The translations under genes were made by a program, and so were the position numbers. From an uncultured Acholeplasma sp. (lineage in GTDB: Bacteria; Bacillota_I; Bacilli_A; Acholeplasmatales; Acholeplasmataceae), in assembly GCA_937868795.1 (NCBI GenBank), contig CALMNM010000106.1:1-56975 (forward strand): 56,975 nt of DNA. Direction: 5' to 3'. The notes under the pieces were generated by a model. The model made no database searches, was not told where the DNA came from, and was given only the letters and a program-made list of their open reading frames with translations. Each line of letters starts with the position of its first letter. The stretch's first letter is position 1. Positions 20,027 through 30,294 of the stretch are shown piece by piece.

Positions 20027-21574
20027 TTAGGGTTTCTTATGTTTGATGATGAACCAAACACCGGTTCCTAACAGTGCTAATGCAGCTAAAGATGTAACAA
20101 TCCACATCCATGAAAGCCCTGATTCTTCATCGACGTTTATTAAAACTCTTGATGTGACTTCTTCTCCATCAAGCACGTAGGAAAGATAGACATAATACTC
20201 ACCTTCTTGGTCTTCACGTCCAGCATATTCGTTATAGAGAATGGAAACACTAGATACCGATAAACCTTGAGAAGCCGTGTGTTGGATAAACCAATCGATA
20301 ATGTCTTCATCTGACATAAGTTCTGCCGTTGAGCGTTCGATGATGTCACTCCCAATTTCGAAAGTAGGACCTTGGTGATCGATGACGTGAATGTAAACAC
20401 TAAAAGTGGTTGTGTTAAGTTGCGTATCTTGTGCTTGATAAGTGACTAAGTAACGTCCAGGTGTTTGAGTTTGCATATATTCATCTGTAGTTATTGTGAC
20501 TGTCACATTACTTAAATCAACAGCATCTGTAATCTCAAAATGATTTTTGATGTCATTTGTTGTTAAGGGGGTATCTGTGGTATATAAATAGATGGATGTC
20601 GGTCCATAAACTATAGGTGGGACATTGTCAACCAGATTAATCGTTACATTAATCGTTTCTTCGTTTCCAGAACTATCTACGGCTTTAAGTAATACGGCAT
20701 ATGTCCCTGGTGTGGTCGCGGCTGAATAAGTGTCCGAGATGACCATTAAATCAGAACTATCCAAATCATCAACGTTATCAGAGACAATAACATAACTCTT
20801 GATCGTGGAAATACTCCATTTACTAGCGATTGGAATATCCAATGGCGCTTCAACTGAAAGAACTGGCTTTGTGAGATCAAATATTTTAACGTCAAGATAG
20901 AATTTTTTACGAACATGATTATAAATGGTTTCAAAAACCATCCGATAGGTCCCAGGTGATTTATCCGAACTGCTATACGCATCCGATAATAATGTTTTCG
21001 TGATTTGATTCCCATAAGGATCTTTTGCAGTCACAAACGATTCAATGGTTGCTAACGAGGGTAAAGCATCATAATCTACAGGAAGCACACCACCATAACT
21101 CATCACCTCAGTTGGCATGAGATAGGGAACAAATCCACTAAAGTCCTGATATGTTCCTTGATACAGCATAATCTCATAGTTATTCACGTCAGATACAGGA
21201 ACATGATGCATATCGATGAGACCCGTCGTGGACTGAAATTCAATGTAGGCTCTTTGGTTGGTAGGGTCATTGACCAAATACGTTTCAAACGCATTCGATC
21301 CATCATTTTCGTCAAACGCAATGTAAAGATTTGCAATATCAGCGATATAATCAGAAAGATAGGTATGACTCATGACTAGGGTATACGTTTGATTAACCTC
21401 TAAACTAAGTGTTTCTGCGTAGTAGGCGACATCCGGATTGTACTTATACCCATTGAGTAATGAGAGATTTAAAAGATTAATTTCATTCAAGGGTATTGTT
21501 TCTTCAGCTCTGGATGTGACATGGAAACTAAAGGCAACAAACATCATTAAGACCAGCAATACGATTTTTTTCAT
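20027..21574 (-). CDS. Ig-like repeat surface protein with C-terminal membrane anchor
   Basis: 515 residues. An N-terminal signal peptide (about 1-23, no lipobox Cys) and one C-terminal helix (about 490-510) followed by KHKKP anchor it with the bulk outside. From about residue 165 there are at least three DUF5011/HYR-like repeats. Each has a proline-rich opener, an ITD or VSD.VD segment, and the PGTY..... motif (SPGTYRMVF, TPGTYAVLL, TPGRYLVTY) ending near a conserved QD or DSSGN turn. It resembles the Ig-like domain at the OppA N-terminus. Such domains usually mediate adhesion or spacing at the surface; no enzymatic motif is seen. RBS AGGAGGTAAG precedes the ATG. Confidence 0.8.
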   Translation of the reverse strand: MKKIVLLVLMMFVAFSFHVTSRAEETIPLNEINLLNLSLLNGYKYNPDVAYYAETLSLEVNQTYTLVMSHTYLSDYIADIANLYIAFDENDGSNAFETYLVNDPTNQRAYIEFQSTTGLIDMHHVPVSDVNNYEIMLYQGTYQDFSGFVPYLMPTEVMSYGGVLPVDYDALPSLATIESFVTAKDPYGNQITKTLLSDAYSSSDKSPGTYRMVFETIYNHVRKKFYLDVKIFDLTKPVLSVEAPLDIPIASKWSISTIKSYVIVSDNVDDLDSSDLMVISDTYSAATTPGTYAVLLKAVDSSGNEETINVTINLVDNVPPIVYGPTSIYLYTTDTPLTTNDIKNHFEITDAVDLSNVTVTITTDEYMQTQTPGRYLVTYQAQDTQLNTTTFSVYIHVIDHQGPTFEIGSDIIERSTAELMSDEDIIDWFIQHTASQGLSVSSVSILYNEYAGREDQEGEYYVYLSYVLDGEEVTSRVLINVDEESGLSWMWIVTSLAALALLGTGVWFIIKHKKP

Positions 21575-23226: not shown

Positions 23227-24924
23227 TTATTCTTGATGATCCTTGCTAAACTTGACAATAATGTGTGTCCCACGTGACATTGAACTCTTTAAATCGATGG
23301 TCCCTTCGTATTTCATCACAATGTGTTTCACAATCGCTAATCCTAAGCCAGTCCCCCCATCTTGTCGACCTTTATCGACACGATAAAAGCGTTCAAAGAC
23401 ACGTTGCTGGTGTTCGGGAGCAATCCCGATCCCCTGATCTTTTACTGAAAAGACAATATCATTAGCTTGTGCTTTGAGAATGACTTGGACTGTTTTTTGA
23501 TCTTCACTATACTTGATTGCATTTTCGATAAGATTTTTAAATAGTTTATGCATATCAATGGGGTCACAAAGATATTCGATGCGTGATAATGTTGGGTTTA
23601 TCGTGATATTTTTCGCATCAGCAAGCGGTTTAAGCTGACTTAAAACATCACTTAATATCTGTTCAAGATGGACGTTTTGATATGTTTTTTCTTTTAAATT
23701 CTCAAGTCTGGAAAGCATGAGCATATCCTCAACAAGCGCTGCCATCATTTCAGTTTGTTGAACGATATTATGAGCTGTTGGAGAAATCTCGTCGTGCGAA
23801 ATCAATCCATGTTCTATCAATTCTGCATACCCTCTGATCGCGGTTAATGGACTTTTAAGTTCGTGAGATGCATGACTGAAGAAATCACGTTTGATTTGTT
23901 CAATGGCACGTTCTTGAGTCACATCTTTAAAGGTGATAAGAACGGTTGCTTGTGACTTATTTCTTCCTTCAGCATTGACGTGAAACGCTTTAAACTCAAT
24001 CGTTTTTCCTTCCATTTTTGAATCAAACGTCACGTTGGTCTGTCCTTGATTGGTTTTAGTAATAGCCTCTTTGATTTGATTATCTCTAATCATGTAGTAT
24101 GAAGGTTTATCATAGGCTTCGTCGTTTAGATGGAATAGGCTTGCTGCATCATCATTAAAATAGACAAGTTCTTCACGGTCATTGAAAAGCATGACACCTT
24201 GTTTGAGCTCATTTAGAATTTCTTTGAGTTGTATTTGATAGGTTTCAATTGAACGTAGATTTTTATCCGTTTCCAAATTAATCCGGTTCATTTCATTCAG
24301 TAAATCATTAATCTCTGGATAGGGTGAAGTAAGAGCCATGACTTCATAGTTCCCTTCAGATAGTGCGGTCAAACCTACTTTAACTTTTTCCCATGGAGCC
24401 ATGACATTTTTATTGATTCTTACCAATCCCACATAATAGAAACCAATAAATCCAAAGGAGGTTAATATCAAAATCCAAAGGAGTCTGGAGTAGTATACTG
24501 ACTGCGAAGCGAGCGGGATTGATACCCTTAAAATGTTCTGGTCATCCATTCGCTTTGCCATATAAAAGAGTTCTTCTCCGATAGTTAATGAAGTGCGAAC
24601 TGACATGGATCCTAAGTTTCTAACCTCTGGTCTTTGACTCTTATCTTGGCCAGTTTCTTCATCATGTGAATCAGCAAGGACAATACCATCGGGATTAAGA
24701 ATGGTGATGCGTCTTCCTGTTTCAATTTGATATTCACTGACAAATTCTAATGGTGTTCCTTCATAAGATTCATATTCTAACTCAACTTCTGCAAGCACAA
24801 AAGAAACCAAAGCTTTTTGTTGGTTTTGTTGCAGTGTATAGATGCCGATAAAAACGATGATAAAAAAGATAATAAACGCGATCAGCATCAAGATGATGTT
24901 ATTTCTTATGAGTGCCTGTTTCAT
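23227..24924 (-). CDS. phoR: Phosphate-responsive sensor histidine kinase PhoR
   Basis: 565 residues. TM1 about 9-30, an extracytoplasmic domain to about 145, TM2 about 147-168, a HAMP-like linker to about 218, and a PAS domain about 228-335 (LKQGVMLFNDREELVYFND). HisKA carries the phospho-acceptor His 354 in ASHELKSPLTA. The ATPase domain has an N box (NLIENAIKYS), G1 (VKDQGIGIAP), F box (FERFYRVDKG) and G2 (GGTGLGLAIVKH). The start overlaps the response regulator stop by 4 bases. It ends the pst-phoU-phoPR cluster, so phosphate sensing through PstSCAB and PhoU is the likely input. Confidence 0.92.
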   Translation of the reverse strand: MKQALIRNNIILMLIAFIIFFIIVFIGIYTLQQNQQKALVSFVLAEVELEYESYEGTPLEFVSEYQIETGRRITILNPDGIVLADSHDEETGQDKSQRPEVRNLGSMSVRTSLTIGEELFYMAKRMDDQNILRVSIPLASQSVYYSRLLWILILTSFGFIGFYYVGLVRINKNVMAPWEKVKVGLTALSEGNYEVMALTSPYPEINDLLNEMNRINLETDKNLRSIETYQIQLKEILNELKQGVMLFNDREELVYFNDDAASLFHLNDEAYDKPSYYMIRDNQIKEAITKTNQGQTNVTFDSKMEGKTIEFKAFHVNAEGRNKSQATVLITFKDVTQERAIEQIKRDFFSHASHELKSPLTAIRGYAELIEHGLISHDEISPTAHNIVQQTEMMAALVEDMLMLSRLENLKEKTYQNVHLEQILSDVLSQLKPLADAKNITINPTLSRIEYLCDPIDMHKLFKNLIENAIKYSEDQKTVQVILKAQANDIVFSVKDQGIGIAPEHQQRVFERFYRVDKGRQDGGTGLGLAIVKHIVMKYEGTIDLKSSMSRGTHIIVKFSKDHQE

Positions 24925-25583
24925 TCAATTTGATAACCTATACCTCTGATCGTCACGATTTCAGCTGTGCTGTTTTGTGACTTGAGTTTTTCGCGAAGCG
25001 ATTTAATGTGCATATCCAAAGTTCGTGTCTCACCGATGAAGTCAGTTTCCCATACTTCCTTAAATATCGTTTCTTTTGAGACAACGTTTTTTTGGTTTTT
25101 CATCAGTAATTTTAATATTGAATATTCTTTATTGGTCAAATAAACATATGTGTTTTCCACTGTGAGTTGATGCTTCTTATCATCGAGGATGACATTACCA
25201 ATCGACCACTTTCGATCATCATTTAGTTTTCTCAATTTTGATTGAATACGGGAAGTTAATTCAAGTACACCGAAGGGTTTTGTCATGTAATCATCTGCGC
25301 CATGATCTAAAGCAATAACTTTGTCCATTTCGCTTTGTAAAGCCGATACAACCATAATAGGAATCGTTTGATCTTGTTTTCTTACCCACTGGAGAACATC
25401 GAGTCCTGAGCGATCCGGTAACATGATATCAAGTAATATCATGTCGGGTTTCTCTTCTTTAAATGCTCTCATAAATGATTCAGCAGTCTTAAACCCTTCC
25501 CCATCCATACCAGCATGAGCAATGGTTTTTTCGATAATATAACCAATGGCTTGATCATCTTCGACATAATATATTTTTGGCAT
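24921..25583 (-). CDS. phoP: Response regulator PhoP/PhoB, OmpR family
   Basis: 220 residues. Receiver domain with acidic pair EDD (8-10), phospho-acceptor Asp 52 (LLDIMLPDRSG) and the conserved Lys in YMTKPFG. The C-terminal winged helix contains LTNKEYSILKLLMKN and ends IRGIGYQIE. The start is ATG 25583 with CTAGGAGGGTG just before it, which excludes the long frame beginning at 25694. It probably binds the TTTACA repeats upstream of pstS. It lies 10 bases after phoU. Confidence 0.93.
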   Translation of the reverse strand: MPKIYYVEDDQAIGYIIEKTIAHAGMDGEGFKTAESFMRAFKEEKPDMILLDIMLPDRSGLDVLQWVRKQDQTIPIMVVSALQSEMDKVIALDHGADDYMTKPFGVLELTSRIQSKLRKLNDDRKWSIGNVILDDKKHQLTVENTYVYLTNKEYSILKLLMKNQKNVVSKETIFKEVWETDFIGETRTLDMHIKSLREKLKSQNSTAEIVTIRGIGYQIE

Positions 25584-25593
25584 AAACACCCTC

Positions 25594-26256
25594 CTAGAAA
25601 AGTAGTGTATTTTTGTGAGTTCCCTTAACCATAAAGATGATCCACTGTGCGATGTTGACCGCATGATCTCCCACACGTTCGAAGTATTTAGCAACCATCA
25701 AAATATAGATTGCTTCATTGGGATCAATGTTATCATTTTTGAGTTCTGTCGTCATTTTGTTAATCACTTGCTGGAAAAGCGAGTCCACTTCATCATCTTG
25801 ATCAATGACTTCTCTGGCTAGTTTTTCATCAACTTTTACAAGTCCATCAATGCTTTTTAATACCATTTGTTCAACGACTTCTGCCATTTTTGATGTCAGA
25901 GGCATGACGCGTTGATTACGTGAATCCGTTAGATGCAGTGTCATTTCAGCGACATCAGAAGCATGATCTCCGATGCGTTCAAGATCAGTAATGAGTTTAA
26001 GAATACCTGTCACAAGTCTTAGATCACTGGCGACTGGTTGTTCCTTCCAAATGATTTTTAACGCACTTTTGGCGATCTCTTCCTCGTACTTATCGACGTC
26101 TTCATCTTTATCGATAACTTCACGAGCAAGCACTAAATCATTCGTTTTAAATGCTTTTAATCCTTCTCTTAAATTGGCTAAGGCAAGATCTGCCATAGCT
26201 GCGACTTCCTTTTTGAGTTCTTCAATGGATGTCATTAATGATTGTCTTAATGTCAT
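25594..26256 (-). CDS. phoU: Phosphate signalling protein PhoU
   Basis: 220 residues, usual length, made of two helical PhoU repeats. Metal-site-like motifs are EVIDKDEDVDKYEEEI in the first and EVIDQDDEVD in the second, with the conserved LERIGDHA and FERVGDHA signatures. PhoU links the Pst transporter to the PhoR kinase and holds the response off when phosphate is ample. It lies between pstB and phoP on the same strand. The RBS is AAGGAGACAACACT before the ATG. Confidence 0.96.
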   Translation of the reverse strand: MTLRQSLMTSIEELKKEVAAMADLALANLREGLKAFKTNDLVLAREVIDKDEDVDKYEEEIAKSALKIIWKEQPVASDLRLVTGILKLITDLERIGDHASDVAEMTLHLTDSRNQRVMPLTSKMAEVVEQMVLKSIDGLVKVDEKLAREVIDQDDEVDSLFQQVINKMTTELKNDNIDPNEAIYILMVAKYFERVGDHAVNIAQWIIFMVKGTHKNTLLF

Positions 26257-26282: not shown

Positions 26283-27050
26283 TTATCCGAAGCGACCGGT
26301 GATGTATTCTTCTGTCTTCTTATGCTCTGGTGTTGAAAACATATGGGATGTATCGCCATACTCAATCAATTCACCTAAAAGGAAGAAGGCGGTTTTATCA
26401 GAGATTCTAGCAGCTTGTTGCATATTATGTGTCACGATAATAATCGTGTAATTCTTTTTAAGGTCCATAATGAGATCTTCAATTCTGGCGGTTGCGACAG
26501 GGTCTAGCGCTGATGTAGGTTCATCCATCAAGATGACTTCTGGTTTCATTGCAATCGTTCTTGCAATACATAACCGTTGCTGTTGACCCCCAGATAAAGA
26601 AAGAGCTGATTCCTTAAGACGGTCTTTGACTTCATCCCATAATGCCGCTTGTTTTAAGGATTCTTCAACGATTTCTCTTAAAGTGTTTTTATCTTTAATC
26701 CCTTGGCATTTGGGGCCATAGGTGATGTTGTCATAAATACTCATAGGAAACGGATTGGGCTTTTGAAATACCATGCCTACTCTTTTTCTCAATCCGATCA
26801 CATCAGTCATGGGTTCGTAGATATTTTCTTGATGAAATGAGACTTCACCTTCTATTTTACATGATTCGACTAAATCATTCATCCGATTGAGTGTTCTTAA
26901 AAAGGTTGATTTACCACATCCTGAAGGTCCAATGAGTGCGGTAACTTCTTTTTCATAGATGGGCAGTTCAATCGATTTTAGCGCTTGAGTCTGACCATAA
27001 AATAGATTTAATTCTTTGATGTTGAAGACAATGTTTTGTGTCTGATTCAT
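26283..27050 (-). CDS. pstB: Phosphate ABC transporter ATPase PstB
   Basis: 255 residues, usual length. Walker [10 protein letters not shown] at 41-49, the PstB-typical [12 protein letters not shown]-loop [16 protein letters not shown], signature [13 protein letters not shown] and Walker [14 protein letters not shown]. Its ATG overlaps the pstA TGA stop (ATGA), so it is translationally coupled. It drives phosphate import from the cytoplasmic side of the PstCA permease. Confidence 0.98.
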
Positions 27051-28255
27051 AAGTTTACACCATACTTTCTTCTAAAATTACGCGTGACGAATTTAATGGA
27101 GATATTTAAGGTTAAGACGATGATTAAGATAATGAGTGCTATCGTTGTTGATAAATCAATGTTTGCGGGTTCATCAGACATCATGGACCATATGTGAACA
27201 GCAAGTGAGGTCGATTGACCTGTGAGACTTACCTCATCTTTAATCGCTGTTCCTATCGCAAATACGAGAGCAGCACTTTCACCTATGATTCTGCCGATTG
27301 CTAGGAGTGTCGCGGTTAATATCCCTGGAAATGCATTAGGCAAGATTACCTTAAATGTTGTCTGTGTCTTACTTGCACCAAGGGCGAGTGATGCATAGCG
27401 ATAATCATCAGGAACCACTTTTAAACTCTCTTCTGTTGTTCTAATCACAACCGGCATCAAAATGACAGCGAGTGTCATCGCTCCTGATAAAATGTTACCT
27501 CCAGTAGCATCGGTGATTCTAACGATAAAAGGAACAAAGACCGCAAGACCCATCAAACCATAAATAATGGAAGGAACGCCTGTTAACGTTTCAATCAAAG
27601 AACGAACGAGTTGTGTAAAGCGATTCTTTTTCGCGTATTCATTGAGATAAATGGCTGCACCGACACCGATGGGTAGAGCAATGATGAGTGTAATAAATAT
27701 CAAATAAAATGTCGTGATGATGGATCCTCGAATTCCACCACCCGATGTGGTGAACTCAAGTTCTCTAATATGGTCCATTTCATTGAGTTCTTGAATCATG
27801 ATTTCTGATCCATAACGTGAGAGTGATGACGGACGATCATCATACGCAATTCGAATGATTGAATAATTAACACCTAAAGATAATCTTTGATCGCTTACAC
27901 CTTTGTTCACCATATCGTTAAGAGGTGAATTTTCATGAACATCATAAACTACCACAATATTTTTCCCAAGTAAGTCAATATCATCCTTTAAGGCAAGTCC
28001 CCATACCTCTGAGTAATAGACATCATCTGGATAATTTTGGTCAGCTGGACAGTTACATAAAGCGGTTTGATCATCAAATCCTGCAATATAGTTAACCGCA
28101 AGATAATTATTCGTGATCAAATCTTTGTTGAGTAATCTCACACCATGTGTAACAACATACCCAATAATCAATGACAAGATGACAAGGGTGAAAAGGGCTG
28201 AGCCATACGTAATCACTTGAAGAAAACCATCGCTGAATCTTCGTTTATTTGACAT
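27047..28255 (-). CDS. pstA: Phosphate ABC permease PstA with extended extracytoplasmic loop
   Basis: 402 residues against about 280-300 usually. TM1 (about 14-37) is followed by an insert of about 130 residues (about 40-175) outside the membrane, with a CNC cysteine motif and many Asp and Tyr residues. The normal core begins near [18 protein letters not shown] and includes the EAA-type loop [25 protein letters not shown]. The start is ATG 28255, which overlaps the pstC end by 11 bases, with GGTGG upstream; a GTG at 28264 is the alternative. With PstC it forms the phosphate channel. Confidence 0.93.
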
Positions 28256-29192
28256 CGATTCCACCCACTTTCTTCTTGATGGTGTTTAAGATGAAATTGG
28301 TAATTAGGATAACAGCCATAAGGATGATACCTACAGAGAAGCGGATATTATAATCGAGTCCCGCAGATTCTTTCATCCCCTCTAGCATGGTGGTTGTCAA
28401 TGTCGATGTGGTATCAAAAATGTTAAATGATAAGCCTGATCTTCGACCTCCTGCTACAAGGGATACAGCAGTCGCTTCACCTAATGCACGACCCACGCCA
28501 AGGATTGCCCCAGTGAAAATCCCGGATTTCGCCGCTGCTAGGACTACTTTGAAATAGGTCTGTGTTGGGCTTGCTCCTAAAGCGAGTGACCCATGGATTA
28601 ATGTGGAATCCACGGAACGAATCGCTACTTCAGCAACCGTCGTTATCGTGGGAATCGTCATGAGTGCAAGAATGATTACGGCAGATAAAACTGAGTTCCC
28701 ACCTTTCGATTGAAAGCCAAAAAGGGCTGAAAAATCATAGATAAACGGAAGAATAACGATTGCTCCAAAAAGCCCATAAATGATGGAAGGAATCGATGCG
28801 AGCATCTCGATGATGGTGCGGAAAATCTCTGCAATCCGTTTAGGTGCTATTTTAGCGATGAATAAAGCTGTTAAAACACCGATGGGAAATGAAATAAATA
28901 ATGATAAGAAAACCACATATATGGTCTGGATGATAATAAACCCTACACTGTATAAATTTGATTGGAATGTGGGTCCAATGAGCCAAGTATTTCCGGTTAA
29001 AAAAGGGATAAACGGGACTGCTCCTAATCCTCCATTATCCGTAATAAAGGGGGTAATCCCTTTGGCGAAGATGACCCCTGCTATGACAAAGATAAAGGAT
29101 GCTGATATGATGGCTAAACCTTTTAAAATCTGATGAACCGTCATGTCCACTAATGCATTCTTTTGAAACTTTTTCTTGATGGCATTTTGCAT
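28245..29192 (-). CDS. pstC: Phosphate ABC permease PstC
   Basis: 315 residues, usual length, six membrane segments. Family motifs are GILTALFIAKIAP, MLASIPSIIYGLFG and the ATPase-docking loop GSLALGASPTQTYFKVVLAAAKSGI. The RBS AAAGGAG lies 10 bases before the ATG. A hairpin (29219-29241) separates it from pstS, so expression may be lower than that of the binding protein. Confidence 0.96.
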   Translation of the reverse strand: MQNAIKKKFQKNALVDMTVHQILKGLAIISASFIFVIAGVIFAKGITPFITDNGGLGAVPFIPFLTGNTWLIGPTFQSNLYSVGFIIIQTIYVVFLSLFISFPIGVLTALFIAKIAPKRIAEIFRTIIEMLASIPSIIYGLFGAIVILPFIYDFSALFGFQSKGGNSVLSAVIILALMTIPTITTVAEVAIRSVDSTLIHGSLALGASPTQTYFKVVLAAAKSGIFTGAILGVGRALGEATAVSLVAGGRRSGLSFNIFDTTSTLTTTMLEGMKESAGLDYNIRFSVGIILMAVILITNFILNTIKKKVGGIDVK

Positions 29193-29261: not shown

Positions 29262-30197
29262 TTACGCGTTTGGAACATCGGCCCAAGTGGAATATGTTCC
29301 TTCATAAATCTTCTTTAATGTGTCAGCGGTCATATTGGAAATCGGGTTATTTAAATGCACGATTGCCACAATCGCATCCCATGCGAGTTGACCATATTGT
29401 TCAACAGTCACATTAGCGGTTTCTGTAGAGGTGAATGGACGTGATGCAAATCCAACATCTTTACCAACAGTGGTATCTTTAACTGCTGGATCATTGGTGC
29501 GTTTCCAACCATCTCCAGATCCTGTATGATCGTGTTCAGCGACGAAGTTACCAGCTTTTGCAGTAAATGCTGCTGTCAATGCTTCAGCTACCTTTTGAAT
29601 AGAATCTGAACCACCAAATCTAACGGTCACACCTGAGTTATCTTGTTGAGTGATCGGATGTTGAGCTTTAATGGAATCCCAAGTCGTTGTCGTAGATAAT
29701 GCAATCGCACCTGCATTATTGATAATATCTGCTGCGTCGGTTGTTCCTAGGAAAGCGACAAACGCATTGACGAGATCCTCAACTGCTTGAGAGGGGAAAT
29801 CACCATCGGCGCGAACCATCCAGTTGAAAGGACGCTTTAATGCATAAGTGTTATTAATAACGTTGGCTTCTGTAGGTGCAACACCTTCAAATTCTAGCGC
29901 TTTAATGGTGTCATTCACAGAGGATAATGAAACATATCCGATGCCATACTCATCAATAGACATCGCGTTTAGAATCGCGGTATTGTCTTTGATAACGAAA
30001 CCTTCAACAAGTAAATCATCACTCTTGGCTGCAGGACCAAAACCAATCCCGTTCATAAATCCATCTCGAGTTCCTGAGGTGGTATCACGTGTATATACCG
30101 TAATCGTACTTTCTAGATTAAACTCTGGCTCTGCTTGTGTACAAGCGACTAAAGTCAGAGTGAAGACAAGCATTGCTAATAAGACTAATTTTTTCAT
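29262..30197 (-). CDS. pstS: Phosphate-binding lipoprotein PstS, circularly permuted
   Basis: 311 residues; lipobox TLVAC (Cys 19). The two halves are in reverse order compared with ordinary PstS. Residues 31-170 carry what is normally the second half: TVYTRDTTSGTRDGF (34-48), GIGYVSLSSV (85-94), ALEFEGVAPTEANV and the NTYALKRPF strand. Residues 188-311 carry the normal first half: VTVRFGGSDSIQKVAEAL, HTGSGDG, VGFASRP, WDAIVAIVHLNNPISN, LKKIYEGTYSTWADV, where the protein ends. Total length equals one PstS, so nothing is duplicated. The start is ATG 30197 with AAGGAG upstream. Binding residues (SGTRD, GGSDS, TGSGDG) are kept, so phosphate binding is likely. Confidence 0.93.
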   Translation of the reverse strand: MKKLVLLAMLVFTLTLVACTQAEPEFNLESTITVYTRDTTSGTRDGFMNGIGFGPAAKSDDLLVEGFVIKDNTAILNAMSIDEYGIGYVSLSSVNDTIKALEFEGVAPTEANVINNTYALKRPFNWMVRADGDFPSQAVEDLVNAFVAFLGTTDAADIINNAGAIALSTTTTWDSIKAQHPITQQDNSGVTVRFGGSDSIQKVAEALTAAFTAKAGNFVAEHDHTGSGDGWKRTNDPAVKDTTVGKDVGFASRPFTSTETANVTVEQYGQLAWDAIVAIVHLNNPISNMTADTLKKIYEGTYSTWADVPNA

Positions 30198-30228: not shown

Positions 30229-30294
30229 ATTATAGGTAAAATAGAATTTGTTAGAAATCATAAATCAGTAAGACTATTGTAAAGAAGATGTAAA
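30229..30294 (-). promoter_or_regulatory. pst promoter with Pho-box-like repeats
   Basis: Minus strand: two perfect TTTACA hexamers (30289-30294 and 30278-30283) with an 11-base period, and a weaker CTTACT one period on (30267-30272). Then TATAAT follows at 30229-30234. The -35 (TTTCTA, 30252-30257) is poor, as expected for an activator-dependent promoter. The pattern matches PhoP boxes of Gram-positive bacteria (TTAACA-like repeats every 11 bases). Confidence 0.7.

Follow-up and report, generated by a model that had tools for sequence, protein, structure and literature searches.

Among substrate-binding proteins, circular permutation in nature is known from Treponema pallidum MglB-2 (Tp0684, 'Type Ic'), the tethered binding protein of an ABC importer, which still binds its ligand in the permuted form and for which its authors proposed tethering as the driver of the permutation (PMC4990184). 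Structural circular permutation has also been described among type II binding proteins, in the group of the glycine-betaine-binding (OpuAC/ProX) and molybdate-binding proteins (CPSARST; PMC2395249), where it concerns different families with less than 24% identity and is visible by structure alone. The crystal structure of Streptococcus pneumoniae PstS2 (SP_2084; PDB entry 4h1x, released in 2012) has a permuted order of halves, and our search, limited to the open-access literature, found no paper naming PstS or 4h1x as permuted. The first-pass annotation of the DNA studied here had known of no description of a permuted PstS; within the open-access literature this holds for PstS, whereas for binding proteins in general the phenomenon had already been described with MglB-2.

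The stretch of DNA analysed here, referred to as the window, comprises 56,975 nucleotides of an uncultured Acholeplasma sp. and encodes a PstS that has both halves, the phosphate-binding motifs, the lipobox and the operon in common with ordinary PstS (4q8r and 4gd5; TIGR02136 and PF12849), but in which the two halves have changed places, the GGxD loop is absent and the lipid anchor would lie on the other lobe. In order and cut it is like S. pneumoniae PstS2, with about 25% identity and a shorter linker in PstS2. It resembles MglB-2 in being a natural permutant of a tethered importer-binding protein; however, MglB-2 has a sugar-binding type I fold, another cut and an extra hinge crossover (PMC4990184), and the type I sugar-binding fold with a fourth hinge crossover that characterizes Type Ic was not found in the model of the window PstS.

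Chain order, cut site and operon of the window PstS

The open reading frame given by the first-pass annotation is upheld and lies on the minus strand (Table 1), and its 311 residues amount, as claimed there, to one PstS length with the binding motifs kept. The chain runs from the lipobox (LVAC19) through VYTRDTTSGTRDGF...YALKRPFNWMVR... and the linker to VTVRFGGSDS...TGSGDG...VGFASRP...DAIVAIVHLNNP...LKKIYEGTYSTWADVPNA and the stop codon, with the SGTRD half directly after the lipobox and the GGS/TGSGDG/WADV half at the chain end; an N-half preceding a C-half is not found. In ordinary PstS the segment concerned reads ...IYxGKITNWKEV-GGKDx-IxVVSRExGSGTR.... All of the permuted proteins that were read start just before the last strand of this segment and end just past the W of the first, which indicates that the chain was opened at the GGxD loop, between WKEV and the IxVVSRExGSGTR strand. 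The linker between the old ends comprises about 25 residues (by the HMM borders) with a conserved W in the clade of the window and 16–21 residues elsewhere, and an aromatic residue is found at a similar linker position in nearly all permuted PstS proteins.

Table 1. Positions of the pst–pho features in the window (residue numbers refer to the encoded protein).
Feature	Position	Strand	Basis
Pho-box-like array TTTACA-N5-TTTACA-N5-CTTACT-N5-ATGATT, 11-bp period	30256..30294	minus	
pstS, 311 aa, circularly permuted phosphate-binding lipoprotein	29262..30197	minus	HMM, phmmer, AlphaFold, doubling test
Signal peptide with lipobox (...LVAC19)	30141..30197	minus	Read from sequence
PstS residues 31–168, normally the C-terminal half, now first (YTRDTTSGTRDGF ... 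LKRPF ... NNAGAIAL)	29694..30107	minus	
PstS residues 169–187, linker from old C-terminus to old N-terminus (STTTTWDSIKAQHPITQQD)	29637..29693	minus	
PstS residues 188–308, normally the N-terminal half, now last (GVTVRFGGSDS ... LKKIYEGTYSTWADV)	29274..29636	minus	
pstC	28245..29192	minus	TIGR02138, 213 bits, above cut-off
pstA, 405 aa, with extracytoplasmic insert	27047..28264	minus	
PstA residues 55–172, extracytoplasmic insert between TM1 and TM2, about 110 residues, beta-rich	27749..28102	minus	
pstB	26283..27050	minus	TIGR00972, 428 bits
phoU	25594..26256	minus	
phoP-type response regulator (true start probably inside the ORF)	24921..25694	minus	
phoR-type histidine kinase	23227..24924	minus	

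The circular permutation put forward by the first-pass annotation is corroborated by swapped profile matches, by alignment to doubled sequences and by the AlphaFold model, which agree with one another. TIGR02136 matches the window PstS in two swapped stretches, with residues 30–165 falling on profile positions 162–293 and the remainder on positions 22–157; Pfam PBP_like_2 likewise matches in two stretches of swapped order, and the two half domains each fit PstS profiles when half-domain HMMs are used. In a phmmer comparison with PDB chains, the ordinary PstS proteins 4q8r, 4gd5 and 1twy align as two swapped pieces and 4h1x aligns as a single colinear stretch (residues 29–307), a result that is unchanged with a 56-sequence profile. 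The alignment to a doubled PstS that had been proposed as a check was carried out locally with six normal PstS proteins, both linear and doubled, and with shuffled doubles. The score rose from 130–180 with the linear sequences to 220–273 with the doubled sequences, over query residues ~29–311, with the shuffled doubles at or below 71; there was no gain on doubling in the normal–normal control (709/709), and the comparison with 4h1x was also flat (238/238). Being colinear with 4h1x and gaining score against doubled normal PstS, the window PstS is a circular permutant of the 4h1x type. Its AlphaFold model, built with 56 natural sequences (pLDDT 94.4, pTM 0.88), has the type II PstS fold with two long crossing strands, residues 102–109 and 249–262. 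Foldseek against the PDB placed 4h1x first (E 1e-23, TM 0.67/0.74), by far the best structural match, with OpuAC second and a runner-up E value of 4.5e-5.

The gene had been described in the first-pass annotation as heading an intact pst–phoU–phoPR cluster behind a Pho box and as probably functional, and a pstSCAB–phoU–phoPR arrangement is indeed what is found: pstS is followed by pstC, pstA, pstB, phoU, a PhoP-type regulator and a PhoR-type kinase. The encoded protein has the lipobox, the pstCAB–phoU neighbours and the Pho box expected of a PstS. Since the cluster is intact, the Pho-box-like array is kept 5' of pstS in about 30 relatives and the phosphate-site motifs SGTR, GGS.S (GS.S), TGS (GSG) and SR are invariant across 56 relatives, the window PstS is, as judged from sequence, very probably a working PstS. 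Like any other PstS, it would be held by its lipid anchor, trap phosphate by closing its two lobes around it and hand it to PstCAB, and the Pho box would turn the gene on at low phosphate. The window also encodes, at 20027–21574 on the minus strand and next to a tRNA cluster, a protein with bacterial surface Ig-like repeats that is either secreted or displayed at the surface.

Doubled, tripled and re-cut forms and the origin of the order

Tandem C-N-C-N doubles of 593–678 aa are present as intact ORFs in five genomes, with one further, interrupted case. A triple PstS consists of three permuted units in one ORF of 910 aa (G314, L173:1281–4010, plus strand). The tandem copies are 79–97% identical, are joined by short inter-unit linkers and cluster by genome in the tree; this similarity and clustering indicate either that doubling occurred several times or that the copies were homogenized. 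In Mycoplasmatota bacterium zrk7 (L124:4046–5855, plus strand) a tandem PstS is frameshifted into overlapping ORFs of 123 and 497 aa, through either sequencing error or decay, and was left out of the count of intact doubles.

A second, different circular permutation was seen in one genome, G034 (L039:4846–5790, minus strand). After its own lipobox this PstS begins with the helix that comes behind the LKRPF strand, and it ends with LKRPFMFVTRY; its interior keeps a linker that is exclusive to the permuted form, GGIVLVTATDKSWDEVKENHP (SWDEVKENHPV..DNSD), before the N-half, which is followed by a non-GGxD junction, ISGDNLD. Both this PstS and its PstC-A-B proteins group with the permuted genes of Acholeplasma granularum (support 100/99 for PstS and 100/100 for the operon), in which PstS has the simple permuted form. 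The retained linker points to descent from a permuted ancestor, most simply through the trimming of a C-N-C-N tandem on either side. A surviving normal-order PstS is ruled out for G034 by the start at the C-terminal helix and by the retention of the permuted linker. Another unusual protein, of 497 aa, is encoded in G338 (L174:982–2472, plus strand), in which the last third resembles a normal-order PstS and follows a long unrelated N-terminal part.

The swap would have begun with the coding region of pstS being duplicated in tandem and in frame, after which the outer halves were lost, and this cycle would have been repeated at least once, when a permuted gene was redoubled and trimmed elsewhere to give the second cut of G034. 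We are largely confident that the window encodes a functional, circularly permuted PstS made by duplication and truncation of this repeated kind. As the extant tandems double the permuted unit, the first duplication, from normal to permuted, is proposed by analogy with them, and domain shuffling without a tandem intermediate may have been the route instead. What is new here is the series of PstS forms, namely normal, permuted, doubled, tripled and cut a second time, which fits repeated permutation by duplication and truncation.

The chances are about even that the same permutation originated twice, once in the lineage of the window, with a long PstA, and once in a Streptococcus/Clostridia/Treponema group with a short PstA. 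In the PstS and operon trees the permuted groups are parted by normal-order PstS, with at least two changes of order; a single permuted clade is weakly rejected on the PstC-A-B operon tree (p-AU 0.043) but is not rejected on the PstS tree (p-AU 0.21). The insert in PstA is confined to one of the permuted groups and the linkers differ in length (about 25 or 19 versus 16 residues), although the cut is identical, the linker aromatic is shared by nearly all permuted forms, and horizontal transfer combined with a reversal to normal order could yield the same pattern. A clear single origin is neither shown nor excluded by these two trees, and we lean slightly towards two origins at the same loop.

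Membrane anchor and PstA insert

In ordinary PstS both chain ends lie in lobe I. The crossing strands of the model imply that both chain ends of the window PstS are in lobe II, and the order of secondary-structure elements suggests that the lipid anchor of PstS proteins of the window type has moved from lobe I to lobe II. This move of the anchor and chain ends would be the main mechanical difference from ordinary PstS.

The PstA insert, scored as a pre-core region of ~150–190 residues or an equivalent ORF length, is present in every operon read in which PstS belongs to the permuted lineage of the window, whether single, doubled, tripled or re-cut, and is absent, among the loci read, from the normal-order operons and from the 4h1x-like group; unlike in the window, PstA is without the insert in the close tree neighbours of 4h1x. 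The insert is predicted with good confidence to be folded and beta-rich. Searches with it against Pfam (PDZ included) and PDB profiles gave no significant match, and the matches of the whole PstA in Foldseek are dominated by the membrane part. A known domain is not established for the insert by the Pfam and PDB profile searches, and a profile–profile comparison with PDZ, at 49% probability versus 0.9% for a reversed control, is suggestive of an insert that is possibly PDZ-like. In two further loci (L034 and L214) the ORF with the PstA match is exceptionally long (653 and 593 aa, respectively), perhaps a PstC–PstA fusion, and the PstS sequences of these loci are on long branches.

A still broader reading would take PstS permutation as a running process, from normal to permuted, through repeated tandem doubling and tripling to one re-trimming, with the anchor hopping between lobes and with PstA extended by an extracytoplasmic domain in that lineage in which the other lobe carries the anchor; we offer this only tentatively and think it rather improbable as a whole. 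It seems somewhat more doubtful still that the move of the anchor to lobe II was adaptive and that the PstA insert is its counterpart, a domain that docks or caps PstS in a manner comparable to the P2 loop of MalF for maltose-binding protein. In the window's lineage the insert, predicted to be folded, does accompany permuted, tandem and re-cut PstS, and it is never seen in the normal-order operons among the loci read, but this association amounts to a single event on the tree, the 4h1x-type permuted PstS pairs with a short PstA, and in G034 the anchor would be back on lobe I and the long PstA is kept.

Distribution and annotation

The first-pass annotation had called such a permutation rare and had suggested a survey of PstS homologues across relatives. 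This survey showed that the order is widespread: the permuted order, scored as a colinear match to the permuted profile, is present in 114 of the 395 genomes sampled within the class, from which the phylum-level search was also drawn, and the same permutation and cut recur in S. pneumoniae PstS2, Treponema and Monoglobus. A permutation unique to the window genome is thus ruled out, and the description as rare does not stand. Named carriers include A. laidlawii, A. oculi, A. granularum, Peloplasma, Paracholeplasma, Izemoplasma and Erysipelotrichaceae MAGs. Other members of the class, and organisms beyond it, have normal-order PstS, and both orders coexist in a single genome (G242). On Treponema saccharophilum pTS2 (L233) and a Monoglobus pectinilyticus plasmid (L234), permuted PstS proteins head complete pst–phoU operons and are annotated just as 'substrate-binding domain-containing protein', without the PstS name.

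The whole-protein TIGR02136 score of the window PstS, 109.4 bits, falls below the cut-off of 206.6 because the halves are swapped, and annotation pipelines consequently under-name permuted PstS proteins. This low score is the sole point in favour of a chance or artefactual joining of two half genes, which is hardly credible, as the same order occurs in 198 ORF records (not independent, the same gene being read in several loci and some genes counted twice) and is shared by 114 distinct genomes, including isolates, and by a crystal structure. The frameshift or assembly junction that the first-pass annotation had named as fatal to its reading is likewise excluded, since independent assemblies, among them those of the isolates A. 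laidlawii, A. oculi and Peloplasma aerotolerans, have the identical order, as does the crystal structure.

The lasting interest of the window PstS is the series of permutation states to which it belongs and the fact that a widespread class of PstS is misannotated. Annotation models with a linear order miss this class of phosphate-binding proteins, including one that comes from a major pathogen and whose structure has been solved. Natural circular permutations are mostly known as end points, whereas PstS is found in ordinary, permuted, doubled, tripled and re-cut forms, and as the internal linkers of these forms record their history, permutation by duplication becomes open to stepwise study. 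These forms also raise a testable question, namely whether anchoring a binding protein in the membrane by one lobe or the other makes a difference.
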